From Mesorhizobium sp. BR1-1-16 (GTDB lineage: Bacteria; Pseudomonadota; Alphaproteobacteria; Rhizobiales; Kaistiaceae): a DNA stretch of 64,000 bases. The DNA is taken from assembly GCF_020165495.1 (NCBI RefSeq), contig NZ_JAIUIE010000004.1, positions 310,001 to 374,000 of the forward strand, given 5' to 3'. Shown here in pieces: positions 55,635 through 64,000 of this stretch. A program made the position numbers and the translations under genes. The stretch's first letter is position 1; each line of letters starts with the position of its first letter. The notes below the pieces were generated by a model, which had not been told where the DNA came from, ran no database searches, and saw only the letters and a list, made by a program, of their open reading frames with translations.

Positions 55635-55720
55635 GTGCATGCACTGCCGATTGGCAGTTCCCAAGCGTGAGCTGCGCCCATAATCTTGTCTCGTTGATCA
55701 AGATCACTCCGGGACCGTCC

Positions 55721-56695
55721 ATGTCTGCCATTCCCCTCATCGACCTCGCCGATCCCAGCGGCAAGCACGCCGTCGCTGCGGCGATCGGACAGACCTGCGC
55801 AGACACCGGCTTCTTCCTGGTGACTGGACATGGCGCCGACTCCGAGGCGATCGAGCGCGGATGGAACGCGGCCCGCGCCTTTTTCGACCGCCCGCTCGCG
55901 GATAAGCTCGCCGCGGCGATGCCCTATCCCGGCTATCCCTATGGCTACAGCCCCGTCAAGGGCGAGACTCTGGCCGCCTCGCTCGGCGATGTGCGCCCGG
56001 CCGATCTGAAAGAGACCTTCTCGCTGGGGCCCTCGGCCTTCCGCAGGCTCGACCACAAGCCGGCCGATGATGCCGAGGCCTTCGTGTTCTCGGCCAATCC
56101 GTGGCCTTTCGAAGGCGACGAATTCCGCCGCGCGGCGATGGGCTATTATCAGGCGATGTCGGCGCTCGCCGGCCGGATCATGCGGCTTTTCGCCCTCGCG
56201 CTCGATCTGCCCGAGACCTATTTCGACCGCTTCATCGATCAGGAAGCCAGCGCGCTGCGCCTGCTCAATTATCCCGAGGTCGACGAGCCTCCGGCCGAGG
56301 GACAGCTGCGCGCCGGCGCCCATTCCGACTATGGCTCGCTGACGATCCTGCGCCAGGAGGATTCGCCCGGCGGGCTCGAGGTGAAAGGCGCCGACGGGAC
56401 ATGGATCAAGGTGCCGGCCGTTCCCGACAGCTTCGTCATCAATATCGGCGATCTGATGCAGCGCTGGACGAACGATCGCTGGAAATCGACGCTGCACCGC
56501 GTCGCCGTGCCACCGCCGCATCCCGGTCGGCCGACGCGGCGCCAGTCGATCGCCTTCTTCCACCAGCCCAACTGGGATGCATCCATCGCCTGTATCGAAA
56601 CCTGCCTCGCGTCCGGCGAAGCCCCGAAATATCCGCCGATCGGCTCCGGCGAATATCTCGCTGCCAAATTCCGTTCGACCGTCGTGAAGGCTTGA
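55721..56695 (+). CDS. Isopenicillin-N-synthase-like 2-oxoglutarate/Fe(II) dioxygenase
   Basis: A 324-residue enzyme of the 2OG-Fe(II) oxygenase superfamily with a DIOX_N-type N-terminus (TGFFLVTGHGAD). The iron ligands are in GAHSDYGSLTILRQE (His and Asp) and KSTLHRVAVPP (His), and the 2-oxoglutarate-binding Arg-x-Ser is in TRRQSIAFFH. Length is normal. No signal peptide. The substrate is unknown; members act on amino acids, peptides and hormones. It lies 104 bases upstream of the transglutaminase operon in the same direction and could be functionally linked. Confidence 0.9.
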   Translation: MSAIPLIDLADPSGKHAVAAAIGQTCADTGFFLVTGHGADSEAIERGWNAARAFFDRPLADKLAAAMPYPGYPYGYSPVKGETLAASLGDVRPADLKETFSLGPSAFRRLDHKPADDAEAFVFSANPWPFEGDEFRRAAMGYYQAMSALAGRIMRLFALALDLPETYFDRFIDQEASALRLLNYPEVDEPPAEGQLRAGAHSDYGSLTILRQEDSPGGLEVKGADGTWIKVPAVPDSFVINIGDLMQRWTNDRWKSTLHRVAVPPPHPGRPTRRQSIAFFHQPNWDASIACIETCLASGEAPKYPPIGSGEYLAAKFRSTVVKA

Positions 56696-56799
56696 GTTCC
56701 TTGCGGGCGCGCCGATGCGTCACGCCGGCCTTGGCGCGTTTGTTGCGTCTTCGTGTATCGTTCGGCGACGACCGCCGCCCAAGAGAGTTTCGCTGACCA

Positions 56800-59700
56800 A
56801 TGTCAATCCTCGCCGCGCTTCGCCACGTCACCCGCTACCGCTACGACAAGCCGGTCGCGCTGGGGCCGCAGGTCATCCGCCTGCGCCCGGCGCCGCATTG
56901 CCGGACCAAGGTGCCGAGCTATTCGCTCTCGGTGAAACCCGCCAACCACTTCGTGAACTGGCAGCAGGATCCGCACGGCAACTGGCAGGCGCGCTTCGTC
57001 TTTCCCGAGAAGACGCAGGAATTCGAGATCGCCATCGATCTCGTCGCCGAACTCGAGGTCTACAATCCGTTCGATTTCTTCGTCGAGCCCTATGCCGAGA
57101 CGTTTCCCTTCACCTATGAGCCTTCGCTCGCCGAGGAGCTTGCCGCCTATCTGAAGCCGGAGCCGTCGGGACCTCTGCTCGATGCCTTTGTCGCCAGCAT
57201 TCCGCGCGACACGATGCAGATCGTCGACTTCCTGGTCGCGATCAACCAGCGCCTGCAGGGCGACATCAAATATCTGATCCGCATGGAGCCCGGCGTGCAG
57301 ACGCCGGAGGAGACGCTCGGCAACGCCTCCGGCTCGTGCCGCGACACCGGCTGGCTGCTGGTGCAGGCGCTGCGTAAGCTCGGCCTCGCCGCCCGTTTCG
57401 TCTCCGGCTATCTCATTCAGCTGAAGCCGGACGTCCCGGCGCTCGACGGACCATCGGGAACCGAGGTCGACTTCACCGACCTCCACGCCTGGGCCGAGGT
57501 CTATATCCCCGGCGCCGGCTGGGTCGGCATGGACCCGACGTCGGGCCTCTTCACCGGCGAAGGCCACCTGCCCCTCTCGGCGACGCCACATTACCGCTCG
57601 GCCGCGCCGATCACCGGCAGCTTCGCGGCCGATCCCGACACGCGGACCGAATTCGATTTCGAAATGCGGATCGACCGCATCGCCGAGCAGCCGCGCGTCA
57701 CGCTGCCCTTCTCGGATGAGAGCTGGGCGGCGCTGGACGCGCTCGGTCACAAGGTGGACGAGGAACTGAAGGCCAACGATGTCCGCCTGACCATGGGCGG
57801 CGAGCCTACCTTCGTCTCGATCGATGACTACCAGTCGGCCGAGTGGAACACCGCGGCTGTCGGCCCGACCAAGCGGACACGCGCCGACGACCTCATCCGC
57901 CGCCTGCGCGACCGTTTCGCGCCCGGCGGCTTCCTGCATTACGGCCAGGGCAAGTGGTATCCGGGCGAGAGCCTGCCGCGCTGGACCTTCGCGATCTACT
58001 GGCGCAAGGACGGCAAACCGATCTGGCAGGATGCGAACTGGATCGCGGCCGAGGGCAAGGCGGAGCGCGCTTCGGCTGACGATGCCAAGGCGCTGCTGGA
58101 AAATCTCTCCGAGCGGCTCGGCATCCCCCCGAGCTTCGTCATCCCCGCCTATGAGGATCCGGCGCACTGGATCCTCAAGGAAGCCGAGCTGCCGGAAAAC
58201 GTGACGACGTCGGATTCGAAGCTGGAAGATGCCGAGGCGCGCGCCCGCATCGCCCGCGTCTTCGAGCGCGGCCTTGCCAATGCCTCGGGCTATGTACTGC
58301 CCGTGCAGCGCTGGCAGGCGCAGGCGCGCTCGAAGCGGCGCTGGGCGTCCGAGCGCTGGCCGCTGCGCCGCGGGCGCATCTTCCTGGTGCCCGGCGACAG
58401 CCCGGTCGGCTACCGCCTGCCGCTTTCCTCGCTGCCCTATGTCCCGGCGTCGTCCTATCCGTTCATCGTCCAGGCTGATCCCGGTTCGATCAACACGCCG
58501 CTGCCCGATCCGGAAGAGATCGCGGCGCAGCTTTCACGCCCCGGCACCGAGCGCGACGCCGAGCGGGCCGAGCAGATCGCCCAGTATTTCACCGGCACCG
58601 GCGCGGTGCGCACCGCGATCAGCATCGAGCCGCGCGATGGGCGGCTGTGCGTGTTCATGCCGCCGACCGAGCGGCTCGAGGACTATCTGGAGCTGATCGC
58701 CTCCGTCGAGGCAACGGCGCGCGAGCTCGAGCTTCCGGTGCATGTCGAGGGCTATCCGCCGCCGATCGATCCGCGCCTCAATGTGATCAAGGTGACGCCG
58801 GACCCCGGCGTGATCGAGGTCAACATCCATCCCTCCGCCGACTGGACGCAGTGCGTTGCGACGACTCGCGACCTTTATGAAGACGCACGGCAGGCGCGGC
58901 TCGGCACCGAGAAGTTCATGACCGACGGCCGCCATACCGGCACCGGCGGCGGCAATCATGTCGTGGTCGGCGGCGCCCATCCGGCCGACAGCCCGTTCCT
59001 GCGCCGCCCGGACCTCCTGAAGAGCCTCGTCACCTACTGGCAGCGCCATCCCTCGCTGTCGTTCCTTTTCTCGGGCCTCTTCATCGGGCCGACGAGCCAG
59101 GCGCCGCGCATCGACGAGGCGCGCAACGATTCGCTCTATGAGCTCGAAATCGCGATGTCGAAGGTGTCGCCGCCCGGCTGGGGCGCGCCGCCGCCGCCCT
59201 GGCTGGTCGACCGCCTGTTCCGCAACCTGCTCGTCGACGTCACCGGCAATACGCATCGCGCCGAGATCTGCATCGACAAGCTCTATTCGCCGGATGGGCC
59301 GACGGGCCGGCTCGGCCTCGTCGAGTTCCGCTCCTTCGAGATGCCGCCGGATTACCGGATGAGCCTTGCGCAGCAATTGCTGGTGCGCGCGCTTATTTCG
59401 TGGTTCTGGAAGCAGCCGCAGCAGGGTTCCCTGGTGCGCTGGGGCACGCAGCTGCATGACCGTTTCATGCTGCCGCATTTTGTCTGGGCCGATTTCCTCG
59501 ACGTGCTCGGCGATCTGCGCAATGCCGGCTATCCGTTCGATCCGGTCTGGTTCGAGGCACAGCGCGAGTTCCGCTTTCCCTTCTCCGGCGTCGTCGAGCA
59601 GCAGGGCGTGCGGCTCGAACTCCGGCAGGCGCTGGAGCCCTGGCATGTGCTCGGCGAGGAAGGGGCGATCGGCGGCACGGTGCGCTATGTCGATTCGTCC

Positions 59701-60123
59701 GTCGAGCGGTTGCAGGTCAAGGCCGAGGGGCTCGATCCGCGCCGTCATATCGTCGCCTGCAATGGCCGCCGCCTGCCGATGACCTCGGCCGGCACGGCCG
59801 GCAGCTTCGTCGCCGGCGTGCGCTTCAAGGCCTGGCAGCCGGCTTCCGGCCTGCATCCGACCATTCCGGTGCATGCGCCGCTCTTGTTCGACATCGTCGA
59901 CAGCTGGTCGGGCCGCTCGCTCGGCGGCTGCGTCTATCATGTCGCCCATCCCGGTGGCCGCAACTATGAGACATTTCCGGTGAATTCCTATGAGGCAGAG
60001 GCGCGTCGTCTCGCCCGCTTCGAGGCGATCGGCCATACCGGCGGCTCGTTCATGCCACCCGTCGAGCCCTCCTCGGCCGAATTCCCGCTGACGCTCGATC
60101 TTCGTCGTCCGGCCGGGATCTGA
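56800..60123 (+). CDS. Transglutaminase-like / DUF2126 putative amidoligase fusion
   Basis: A 1107-residue two-part protein. Residues about 1-270 are a bacterial transglutaminase-like domain with an N-terminal beta region ([20 protein letters not shown]) and an intact catalytic triad: Cys180 in [12 protein letters not shown], His229 in DLHAWAEVY and Asp245 in GMDPTSG. From about residue 320 on ([20 protein letters not shown]) it is DUF2126 (PF09899), described as a putative amidoligase. No signal peptide is visible. It opens a three-gene operon; the next gene starts five bases after its stop. The set has the parts for peptide cross-linking, trimming or ligation; the substrate is unknown. Confidence 0.9.
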
Positions 60124-60127
60124 GGCG

Positions 60128-62635
60128 GTGCCCCGCCGGGAATCAACGCGCAAGAGCCGCGCCGTCGCCGAAAGGGCCGCGCGGCTCGTCAGGCATTACA
60201 AGCCGTTGCCGGGCGTCGCCGACGAGCTGATCGGCAAGGACGGCCGCATCCGCCCGCATTGGCAGCGCTTCGTCGACACCATGGCCGAACTCGGCAGCCG
60301 CGAGGTGGCGCATCGCTTCGCGCTCGCCGACCGTCATCTGGCCGAATCGGGCGTGGTGATGCGCGTCTATGGCGCGGAGACCGGCGACGAGCGGCCCTGG
60401 CCGCTGGCGCATGTGCCCTTCCTGATCGAGCCCGAGGAGTGGAAGCATCTCGAGGCCGGGCTGATCCAGCGGGCGAAGCTGCTCGACGCCATCCTCGGCG
60501 ACACCTATGGCGACGGCACGCTGGCGGCCGATGGCGCGCTGCCGGCGGCGATCCTCGCCGGAAGTCCGGAATTCCTGCGCCCGCTGGTCGGCTCGCAGCC
60601 GGTCGGCGGCCATCACCTGCGCCTCTATGCCGTCGATGTCGGCCGCGGGCCCGATGGCGACTGGTGGGTGATCTCCGACCGCACCCAGGCGCCTTCCGGC
60701 GCCGGCTATGCGCTTGAAAACCGCATCGCGCTGTCGCAGGCGCTGCCCGACGTCTATCGCTCGTTCAAGGTCGAGCGCCTCGCCGGCTTCTTCCAGGATT
60801 TCCGCGCCGGCCTCAATGCGCTCAACCGCCATGAGGAGACGCGCGTCGCGCTGCTGACGCCGGGTCCGCTCAACGAGACCTATTTCGAGCACGCCTATCT
60901 CGCCCGCTATCTCGGCTTCGTGCTCGTCGAGGGCGAGGATCTCACGGTGCGCGACGACACGGTCTATATGCGCACCATCACCGGGCTGAAGCGCGCCGAC
61001 GTGCTGCTGCGCCGTCTCGACGCCGATTTCGCCGATCCGCTCGAGCTCAACCCGGCCTCGCGGCTCGGCGTGCCCGGCCTTGCCGGCGCTGTCCGCCATC
61101 GCAATGTCGCCATCGCCAATGCGCTCGGGTCGGGCGTCGTCGAGGCGCGGGCGATGATGGGCTTCCTGCCTGGCCTTGCGCAGCGCATCCTCGGCGAAAA
61201 GCTGATCCTGCCGAATGTCGCCACCTGGTGGTGCGGACAGACGCTGGAGCGCGATCATGTCGTCGAACACTTCGACCGCATGGTGATCGCGCCGGCGCTG
61301 GGCGCCACGCTGCCGGGCATCCTCGCACGCGGTCCCGTCCTCGGCGCCAATCTGTCGCCCGAGGAAAAGGCCCAGCTCATCGATGCGATCGGCCGGCGCG
61401 GCCAGGACTATGTCGGGCAGGAAGTGGTGAAGCTCTCGACGACGCCGGTGTGGCGCGGCGAGGGCGACGACGCCCGGCTCGAGCCGCGGCCCTCGATCCT
61501 GCGCCTCTATGTCGCGCGCACCGCCGATGGCTGGAAGGCGATGCCGGGCGGTTTCTGCCGCATCTCCGAACGCACGGATGCCCGCGCCGTCACGCTGCAG
61601 CAGGGCGGCGCCTCGGCCGATGTCTGGGTGCTCTCCGACGGCCCTGTCGCGGAAACGACGCTGCTCGGCTCGCCTGACAAGGTCGCGCTTCGCCGCGCCA
61701 CCTCGACGCTGCCGAGCCGCGCCGCCGAGAACCTTTTCTGGCTCGGCCGCTATGTCGAGCGCACCGAACAGGCGCTGCGCCTCGTGCGCGCCGTCGCCGG
61801 CCGCCTCGTCGATGCCGAGGGGCATGGCGGCGCGGTGGCACGGCTCGTCGGCATCCTCGTTGCGGCGGGCGCGGCCGAATCCGATCGCGGTCCGATGCAG
61901 CCGGCCCGCCTGGCGCTCGCCGCGCTGACCGACCGGCGCGCCTTCAACACCATTCCGCGCCTCGCCGAGGCGTCGCGCCGGGCTGCTTCCGTCATCCGCG
62001 ACCGCCTGTCGCCCGATGCCTGGCGCGCCGTGGCGGATCTCGAAATCCTGCTCAACCGGCCGCTCGCCGCCCATACCGGCAGCGACATGCATGAGCGGGC
62101 CAGCGACGCGCTCAGGATCGTCGCCGCCTTTTCGGGCCTCGCACAGGAAAACATGGTGCGCCACAATGGCTGGCGCTTCCTCGAGATGGGCCGCCGCATC
62201 GATCGCGGCCTCGGCGTCGCCCGCGCGTCGCGCTTCTGCGGCCTTGCCGGGACGAGCGCCGAGCTCGACGCCCTGCTCGAGATCGCCGACAGCCAGATCA
62301 CCTATCGCATCCGCTATGTCATGCAGGCGGCGCGCGTTCCCGTGGTCGATCTGGTGCTGCTCGATGGCGGCAATCCGCGCTCGCTCGCCTTCCAGGCCGA
62401 TCGCATCCGCCAGTCGCTCGCCAATCTGCCGGGACATGCGCCGGCCGGCATGCTCGCGCCTGCCGATCGTCTCGCCTCGCGCCTTGCCTCGGAACTGGAG
62501 ACGGCGGACGCATCCGCTCTCGATGCCGACACGATCATCGGCTACGAGCAGACCCTGATGCGCATTTCCGACGAGATCGCGCTGGCCTATTTCACCCATC
62601 GACGGCCGCTTTCGCCGCTCGAGGGCGGAGACTGA
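60128..62635 (+). CDS. Circularly permuted ATP-grasp protein fused to an alpha-E domain
   Basis: An 835-residue protein. Residues about 60-490 are a circularly permuted type-2 ATP-grasp domain (older names DUF404/DUF407), recognisable in HVPFLIEPEEWKHLEAGLIQ, LRLYAVDVGRGPDGDWWVIS and RTQAPSGAGYALENR. From about residue 530 a helical alpha-E domain (PF04168) follows, starting LPSRAAENLFWLGRYVERTE. In many genomes these are two genes; here they are fused. ATP-grasp enzymes ligate a carboxylate to an amine or thiol, so peptide-bond synthesis is a reasonable inference. The start is a GTG at 60128. Confidence 0.9.
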   Translation: MPRRESTRKSRAVAERAARLVRHYKPLPGVADELIGKDGRIRPHWQRFVDTMAELGSREVAHRFALADRHLAESGVVMRVYGAETGDERPWPLAHVPFLIEPEEWKHLEAGLIQRAKLLDAILGDTYGDGTLAADGALPAAILAGSPEFLRPLVGSQPVGGHHLRLYAVDVGRGPDGDWWVISDRTQAPSGAGYALENRIALSQALPDVYRSFKVERLAGFFQDFRAGLNALNRHEETRVALLTPGPLNETYFEHAYLARYLGFVLVEGEDLTVRDDTVYMRTITGLKRADVLLRRLDADFADPLELNPASRLGVPGLAGAVRHRNVAIANALGSGVVEARAMMGFLPGLAQRILGEKLILPNVATWWCGQTLERDHVVEHFDRMVIAPALGATLPGILARGPVLGANLSPEEKAQLIDAIGRRGQDYVGQEVVKLSTTPVWRGEGDDARLEPRPSILRLYVARTADGWKAMPGGFCRISERTDARAVTLQQGGASADVWVLSDGPVAETTLLGSPDKVALRRATSTLPSRAAENLFWLGRYVERTEQALRLVRAVAGRLVDAEGHGGAVARLVGILVAAGAAESDRGPMQPARLALAALTDRRAFNTIPRLAEASRRAASVIRDRLSPDAWRAVADLEILLNRPLAAHTGSDMHERASDALRIVAAFSGLAQENMVRHNGWRFLEMGRRIDRGLGVARASRFCGLAGTSAELDALLEIADSQITYRIRYVMQAARVPVVDLVLLDGGNPRSLAFQADRIRQSLANLPGHAPAGMLAPADRLASRLASELETADASALDADTIIGYEQTLMRISDEIALAYFTHRRPLSPLEGGD

Positions 62636-62637
62636 TC

Positions 62638-63519
62638 GTGCTCTACGACATCAAGCTGGTGACCGAGTATCGCTATGCGAGCCCGGTGCCCTTCGCGCGG
62701 CAGGTGTTGCGGCTGCTGCCCGTCGAACGGCCGGGCCAGCGCGTCATTGCCGCTGACCTTTCCATTCGCCCGGCCCCGACCGAGCGCACGGACAGCCTCG
62801 ATTTCTTCGGCAACCGCATCACGACGGTCGCCTTCGCGTTTCCGCACAGCGAATTGCGGCTGGAGACGCGGGCTCGCGTGCTCGTCGAGAAGGCCGAGAC
62901 GCGGGCGACGCAGAAGACGCCGCCCTTCGAGCAGATCCGGCGCAGCGCCGTCGCCGAAACCGATCTCGGGCCGAAATCGCCGGTGCATTTCCTGTTTGCG
63001 AGCCGCCTGATCGCCCTCGACGAGGCGATCGGCGACTATGCGCAGGAGAGCTTCCCGCCGGGAAAGCCGATCCTCGAAGGCGCCTTCGAGCTGACGAAGC
63101 GGATCAAGGCCGAATTCAAATACGATCCCGAGGCGACGGATGTCAGCACGCTGCCGGCCGATGCCTTCGCCAAGCGCGCCGGCGTCTGCCAGGACTTCGC
63201 GCATGTGATGATCGCCGGGCTCAGGACCATCGGCCTGCCGGCCGCCTATGTCAGCGGTTTCCTGCGCACAGAGCCGCCGCCCGGCCAGCCGCGCCTCGAA
63301 GGCGCCGACGCGACGCATGCCTGGGTCGCGGTCTGGTGCGGCCGCGAGGCGGGCTGGATCGGGCTCGATCCGACCAACGGCGTCCCCGCGGCCGAGGACC
63401 ATGTCGTGCTCGCGGTCGGGCGGGATTATTCCGATGCGGCGCCGGCCGACGGCGTCATCGTGATCTCCGGCGACCATTCGATCGATGTTGCGGTTGACGT
63501 CATCCCGGTCGGTGCATAG
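62638..63519 (+). CDS. Transglutaminase-like cysteine peptidase-fold protein
   Basis: A 293-residue protein with an N-terminal beta domain ([20 protein letters not shown]) and a transglutaminase-like core. The catalytic triad is complete: Cys184 in [11 protein letters not shown], His227 in [10 protein letters not shown] and Asp244 in GLDPTNG. It is a second, shorter relative of the N-terminal part of the protein at 56800. The GTG start is two bases after the preceding stop, with GGAG upstream, so the three genes are one operon. Such domains in bacteria act as peptidases or as acyl transferases. Cytoplasmic, by lack of signal peptide. Confidence 0.9.
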
Positions 63520-63719: not shown

Positions 63720-64000
63720 ATGTCATCCACGTTCGACATCGTTGCCGATGTGATCTCCGAGACGAGCGAAATCCCGCGCGAGAAGATCACGCCGGAGATG
63801 CACGCGATCGACGACCTCGGCATCGACAGCCTCGACTTCCTCGACATCGTGTTTGCGCTCGACAAGAAGTTCGGCATCAAGATTCCGCTCGAGCAGTGGA
63901 CGCAGGAAGTGAATGCAGGCAAGGCCTCGGTCGAGGAGTATTTCCTGCTGAAGAACCTCTGCGCCCATATCGACGAACTGATCGCCAAGAAGAACGCCTG
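63720..64000 (+). CDS. acpXL: Acyl carrier protein AcpXL (stop codon cut by the right edge)
   Basis: 93 codons are visible from the ATG at 63720; the window ends on TG, the first two bases of the stop. The phosphopantetheine serine is in [20 protein letters not shown]. The sequence [20 protein letters not shown], followed by [13 protein letters not shown], is specific to AcpXL, which carries C26-C30 hydroxylated acyl chains for lipid A in Hyphomicrobiales. The usual downstream genes (fabZ, fabF and lpxXL homologues) would lie outside the window. The 200-base gap to its left (63520-63719) holds its probable promoter and no convincing gene. Confidence 0.93.

Follow-up and report, generated by a model that had tools for sequence, protein, structure and literature searches.

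A DUF2126 gene trio with a fused, degenerate ATP-grasp domain as a widespread, biochemically uncharacterised bacterial set with a predicted role in the making and breaking of amide bonds

A peptide-tagging system composed of an ATP-grasp protein, a glutamine-synthetase-like ligase, an NTN hydrolase and an alpha-E protein is said to have been predicted by Iyer et al. 2009, with the ATP-grasp protein reportedly counted as a ligase. Related domain families are found in the Anbu operon, described for example in Yersinia bercovieri, which comprises genes for an ATP-grasp protein, an alpha-E protein, a transglutaminase and the proteasome relative Anbu. According to the available portions of PMC6376114, no specific interaction was detected between the proteins of this operon, and no peptidase activity was detected for YbAnbu. 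The same source describes the release of Pi by the ATP-grasp protein of an Anbu operon. Moreover, no established substrate of the system is named in the available portions of PMC5666114, PMC6376114 and PMC3597751. Here, a gene trio is described that represents a widespread, biochemically uncharacterised bacterial set for the predicted making and breaking of amide bonds, and that may act together with a sister set encoded at another place in the same genome. The trio is referred to as the B module and its sister set as the A module. In a literature search reaching few subscription journals, no paper was found on DUF2126, the predicted ligase domain of the trio, no publication on the activity of any B-module protein, and no account of the loss of the ATP-grasp site in alpha-E fusions.

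The window, i.e., the whole stretch of DNA analysed, comprises 64,000 nucleotides of Mesorhizobium sp. BR1-1-16 and carries on its + strand gene 1 (56800..60123; ATG start, 1107 aa), gene 2 (60128..62635; GTG start, 835 aa) and gene 3 (62638..63519; GTG start, 293 aa). The ORF coordinates confirm the tight packing read in the original prediction, with gaps of 4 bases between genes 1 and 2 and of 2 bases between genes 2 and 3. The transglutaminase, DUF2126, ATP-grasp and alpha-E domains named there were likewise found by Pfam searches. Gene 1 joins Bact_transglu_N and Transglut_core to DUF2126 (1351 bits for DUF2126, with a cut-off of 27), gene 2 unites CP_ATPgrasp_2 (PF14403, 473 bits) and Alpha-E (PF04168, 217 bits) in a single chain, and gene 3 encodes a stand-alone transglutaminase-like protein with Bact_transglu_N and Transglut_core. 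None of the three genes matched NCBIfam at E 0.001, and a promoter and terminator scan of the operon gave no signal clearly above shuffled sequence. The next gene (63723-63998) matches the acyl carrier protein family NF005079 of NCBIfam and is presumably acpXL. The genome (5.2 Mb, 29 contigs) carries the A module, with ATP-grasp, alpha-E, transglutaminase and Anbu genes, on contig C26, which is different from the contig of the B module. Genes for 2OG-Fe(II) oxygenases adjoin both modules (55667-56695 in the window and L010:3957-4844 on C26) and their products are 28% identical to each other; this family was rejected as a conserved partner, since among the other loci searched it is present only in L072.

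The transglutaminase-like cysteine hydrolase domain of gene 1 (residues 7-246 by Pfam and alignment) contains the triad C180/H229/D245, which is invariant in a 17-row alignment of the window and 16 relatives. The triad C184/H227/D244 of gene 3, whose product matches 3isr in a PDB sequence search (E 1e-10), occupies the same alignment columns, so that the two intact triads originally proposed are borne out. In an alignment of 211 transglutaminase domains, window included and hits of up to 600 bases dropped, Cys-His-Asp is present in 101/101 DUF2126-fused domains, in 83 of the 84 third-gene proteins (the remaining row is truncated at the edge of a contig), in 22/24 transglutaminases beside Anbu or A-type genes, and in both of two further paralogues. 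This genome's own Anbu-operon transglutaminase (L010:7672-8481, C26) has Pro at the position of the catalytic Cys, and the second of these 24 neighbours of Anbu or A-type genes to lack the Cys, in L125, has Gly. A further transglutaminase gene of this genome, on contig C12 (L011:3268-6450), overlaps the beginning of a gene for a glutaminase, after which a gene for a sodium/glutamate symporter lies in the same orientation; from this arrangement, a relative of these enzymes may be concerned with glutamine/glutamate chemistry.

The DUF2126 domain of gene 1 (57643..60120 on the + strand, residues 282-1102) is, by Pfam and model fold, a predicted glutamine-synthetase-like amidoligase. Its predicted structure, with a middling pLDDT of 77.7, shows a glutamine-synthetase/GCS-like fold, which lends support to the amidoligase assignment of the original prediction. 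The model had no Foldseek match at E <= 0.001, the DUF2126 part had no match in a PDB sequence search, and hhalign returned no usable alignment with glutamine synthetases, which are too remote for residues to be aligned. Since neither Foldseek nor hhalign provided a template, the candidate catalytic residues were assigned solely through motif order and invariance. These residues (E335, E673, N675, H720, N817, R820, E822, D826, E842 and R844) are kept in at least 97% of the covering rows of a 62-row alignment and in its most divergent row, a degree of conservation consistent with a role in catalysis.

Gene 2 consists of a circularly permuted ATP-grasp fold with a degenerate active site (residues 97-479, Pfam and alignments) and an alpha-E helical domain (residues 528-822, Pfam), both on the + strand. 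For the latter, a fold search gave only helical-bundle-like, uninformative matches (Z <= 9.2). The ATP-grasp fold itself is present, with a match to 3n6x in a PDB sequence search (E 1.6e-76), whereas the nucleotide/metal site is not. The window protein has S, R and A at the positions of E151, N153 and K358. The full seven-position site, made up of the ExN Mg ligands, the nucleotide Lys and the Gly-rich loop, occurs in 0/85 covered B-type fused proteins, window included, and E151, N153 and D418 are all three lost in 84/85, unlike in A-type ATP-grasps, which keep the nucleotide/metal residues (3/37 A-type rows and 1/86 B rows lacking active-site coverage were dropped from these counts). The two types form well-separated clades in a tree of 72 rows, from which rows shorter than 420 aa were left out and in which the B rows of L042-L121 were thinned to every third. 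Thus, the permuted ATP-grasp ligase of the original prediction stands as a fold, but its reading as an active ligase does not, and the loss of catalytic residues in close homologues, which had been named in advance as an argument against an active ligation system, was found for the ATP-grasp domain alone. Because the Mg-ligand-like pair and the Gly-rich ATP loop are lost while the glutathione-synthetase-like fold is kept, gene 2 is more likely non-ligating. Since the fused ATP-grasp domain lacks the ATP and metal residues, the ligase of the operon is probably the DUF2126 domain, as its modelled glutamine-synthetase-like fold would suggest.

It is unlikely that the fused ATP-grasp domain is instead a real but re-tooled ligase that relies on another nucleotide, another metal site or an activated substrate of a different kind. 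The domain is conserved and not decaying, and a B-specific signature replaces the A-type one (N153 -> R in 80/86 and R155 -> Q in 71/86), and between 76 and 86 of the 86 B proteins retain S158, E165, N166, R167, N301, G304 and R420. Moreover, K358 is retained in 5/85 B proteins, and Lys is also found at this position in Granulicella and Enterobacter plasmid copies, so that some B proteins may bind a nucleotide weakly or in an altered manner. Against these features stand the joint loss of E151, N153 and D418 in all but one of the covered proteins, the absence of the full site from every one of them, and the observation that substitution of ExN residues in Cp1B abolished or attenuated its activity. 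On balance and with moderate confidence, we regard the B-type ATP-grasp/alpha-E clade, as sampled in Pseudomonadota and an acidobacterial plasmid, as a putative conserved pseudo-ligase, a substrate-binding or regulatory partner of gene 1-type enzymes beside the canonical ATP-grasp/Anbu module. If this is true, the "two-ligase tagging system" would contain a single catalytic ATP-grasp beside a catalytic GS-like ligase, with the other ATP-grasp serving as a dead scaffold.

Relatives of the operon were collected by a profile scan of genome contigs based on the 17-row alignment, and the best 80 of at least 585 relative stretches were kept. Those of these 80 loci that carry a taxon name at class level or below are alphaproteobacterial, given the classes to which we take the genera to belong. 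Among the best 80 of at least 585, the ATP-grasp::alpha-E gene and then the transglutaminase gene follow DUF2126 in 68 of the 73 loci with at least 3.6 kb downstream, an arrangement far from chance, and gene 1 stands without adjoining genes 2 and 3 in the other five (L057, L098, L101, L105 and L113). Within this same best-80 set, a strict test places ATP-grasp and alpha-E in a single open frame at 65 of 70 loci, and the two appear as single ORFs in the ORF listing of the remaining five (L048, L060, L075, L078 and L089); A-type ATP-grasp and alpha-E are separate genes in 36/36 loci. It is highly improbable that the genes represent a decaying remnant of little functional importance: such a reading accommodates the active site lost in one domain and the Pro for Cys in this genome's Anbu-operon transglutaminase, but it is contradicted by the intact and ordered trio at 68/73 loci, by the near-invariant triads and highly conserved DUF2126 core, and by an acidobacterial plasmid carrying the same trio. 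One divergent DUF2126 gene (L161 in G267, 32% identity) has no ATP-grasp or alpha-E match in its 10 kb stretch.

Additional partners were sought among ORFs of at least 40 aa within 6 kb of 81 loci (the best 80 of at least 585 plus the window's own, L012), with the downstream side covered only at loci in which a third gene had been identified. No conserved tag, precursor or substrate gene was found among such ORFs common to at least 8 of the 81 loci. The 25 ORF clusters drawn from at least 8 loci include the own locus in 0/25 cases; only one of them exceeds 11 loci, with members from 23 loci on both strands and both sides at a median distance of 3.8 kb, and most of the remaining clusters are represented by Rhizobium-type loci. 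A conserved extra partner or substrate gene was rejected, given the scatter of these clusters and the absence of the own locus from all of them, and, with regard to a possible RiPP/graspedtide-type precursor, no ORF of at least 40 aa within 6 kb was broadly common among the relatives. The survey of the 81 loci thus agrees with the original remark that no obvious substrate gene is encoded locally.

Anbu is found neither in the window operon nor within the up to 10 kb covered on each side at the relative loci (best 80 of at least 585) and, therefore, the locus is filed as a DUF2126 module and not as an Anbu operon. The proteasome-type hydrolase that had been noted as missing is indeed absent locally, but Anbu is present on C26 in the paralogous set. 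A second PF00227 match of this genome, on contig C28, may correspond to HslV. Among 299 sampled Pseudomonadota genomes, the own included, the system is widespread and tied to a proteasome relative, with DUF2126 in 84, alpha-E in 156 and an Anbu match in 102. Alpha-E is present in 84/84 DUF2126 genomes and in 101/102 Anbu genomes, and an Anbu match occurs in 51/84 DUF2126 genomes vs. 51/215 genomes without DUF2126. An A-type ATP-grasp query matched 156/299 genomes, including all 84 with DUF2126 (best E <=3.5e-139, taken as A-type strength because this query is far less like B-type proteins), and at least two ATP-grasp matches were found in 78/84 DUF2126 genomes vs. 10/72 others (Fisher p 1.5e-25). 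Since an Anbu match is missing from 33/84 DUF2126 genomes and 6/84 have a single ATP-grasp match, both Anbu and gene 2 are non-obligatory. In 16 of 20 stretches from other classes of Pseudomonadota, hand-picked partly for closely spaced hits and thus not a random sample, DUF2126 and an A-type ATP-grasp lie in the same stretch, with Anbu in 8/20. In G095:C3 and G187:C6, Anbu is distant from the ATP-grasp and alpha-E genes of the same contig and, therefore, the Anbu operon can be split. In G194 and G197, both of genus g8, alpha-E and ATP-grasp are each matched twice and neither DUF2126 nor Anbu is matched; the six other sampled members of this genus all have DUF2126.

These data bear on the hypothesis, summarised in the available portions of PMC5666114 and PMC6376114, that the operon tags proteins with a small peptide or amino acid, and that this tag is taken off or broken down by Anbu or by the transglutaminase domains. 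The association of the genes with proteasome-like Anbu, as well as the two ligase folds and several cysteine hydrolases, fit this hypothesis, which we nevertheless consider doubtful in view of the lack of a conserved small tag or precursor gene at the 81 loci, the DUF2126 genomes with no Anbu match, and the YbAnbu results in the available portions of PMC6376114.

Possible regulation was examined by scoring sigma-54 motifs against a 12-position consensus, at a threshold of at least 10/12. A weak candidate promoter (56732..56747, + strand, 10/12) ends 52 bases upstream of the gene 1 start codon, and most relatives have no candidate before the equivalent gene. Motifs of this type precede the A-module ATP-grasp gene in 11/37 loci (L123-L159; binomial 5e-12), compared with background rates of 1.5% in 2460 random windows and 0.9% in 108 other upstream regions, and the own A module also has one (L010:5106-5121, C26). 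Before the DUF2126 gene they occur in 3/79 and 2/20 loci (binomial 0.01-0.08 and 0.01-0.04, respectively), which is marginal against 0.6-1.5% of windows. Sigma-54 control of the window operon is not claimed, since its upstream motifs are only marginally above background and the inner genes have them in 0/71 and 2/69 cases. The proteasome-type protease family COG3484 is, we assume, Anbu. In the available portions of the respective sources, COG3484 lies within predicted sigma-54 regulons (PMC12316311), Anbu is raised in Pseudomonas putida under N limitation (cited in both PMC5666114 and PMC6376114), and domains of urea metabolism in marine metagenomes are associated with alpha-E, the ATP-grasp DUFs and Bact_transglu_N (PMC3597751). 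Together with the A-module motifs, these reports make nitrogen limitation the condition of interest. They also favour the tentative possibility, short of likely, that under nitrogen limitation the system makes or salvages a small amide for N storage or as an osmolyte, e.g., a gamma-glutamyl or polyamine amide, an explanation for which no metabolite is known and with which the marginal motif counts before the DUF2126 gene are at odds.

We lean slightly towards an interpretation in which amide-bond chemistry is divided between two modules, with the window operon as the B module acting together with the A module on C26. The location of the two modules on different contigs and the lack of detected interactions among the Anbu-operon proteins of Yersinia bercovieri count against it. 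DUF2126 would activate a carboxylate with ATP and join it to an amine, as its fold and invariant residues suggest, and the fused cysteine domain would hydrolyse or transfer the amide; gene 1 would be bifunctional, with the amide made and broken in one chain. Gene 2 would be a pseudo-ATP-grasp partner serving in substrate binding or presentation or in regulation rather than in ligation, gene 3 would be a second cysteine amidase or transferase, and the canonical ATP-grasp, alpha-E, transglutaminase and Anbu on C26 would be the partners provided by the A module. We infer these activities, as well as direct cooperation between the modules and a substrate class of amino acids, peptides or polyamines. 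Overall, the original prediction is partly supported. As one of the two ATP-grasp clades is probably non-ligating, the biochemistry is narrowed to DUF2126 and the A-type ATP-grasp, and caution is advisable in annotating the ATP-grasp::alpha-E fusion as a ligase.

Among known systems, the Rlo operon of Pseudomonas aeruginosa (RloA/B/C) also brings a protease together with an ATP-grasp and a transglutaminase fold; as described in the available portions of PMC12239564, its ATP-grasp is RimK-related (24% identity to RimK) and its transglutaminase is an inactive membrane protein, and by annotation alone it belongs to a different family set. E. coli glutathionylspermidine synthetase/amidase (Gss) unites ligase and amidase in one chain, as gene 1 may do, an analogy of architecture only. 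The gene 1 ligase would be glutamine-synthetase-like, whereas that of Gss is an ATP-grasp, and hhalign of the ATP-grasp profiles with Gss gave no sequence alignment, the proteins being too remote. The system attributed to Iyer et al. 2009 is said to have the same domain set, which is here spread over two loci: the permuted ATP-grasp with alpha-E and the GS-like DUF2126 are present at the window, but an NTN hydrolase is not in the operon. Its ATP-grasp is reportedly a ligase, whereas the fused copy here looks non-catalytic. The Anbu operon, of which the own genome holds a full copy on C26, has domain families in common with the window operon, which differs in the presence of DUF2126, the absence of Anbu, and the fusion of ATP-grasp with alpha-E; moreover, the window ATP-grasp has lost the nucleotide/metal residues that A-type ATP-grasps keep. 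An Enterobacter roggenkampii IncFII plasmid, p1_120063 (L195), carries genes for an ATP-grasp, alpha-E, transglutaminase-DUF2126, an 803 aa ATP-grasp and a transglutaminase in a row, near arsC and flanked by IS6-family transposase genes, with no annotated Anbu. Finally, plasmid pACIX901 of Granulicella tundricola (ACIX9_RS19305/19300/19295) contains the trio in the same order as the window, with an 847 aa ATP-grasp protein in which ExN is lost; unlike the window operon, this trio is plasmid-borne, belongs to Acidobacteriota and has Lys at the K358 position.
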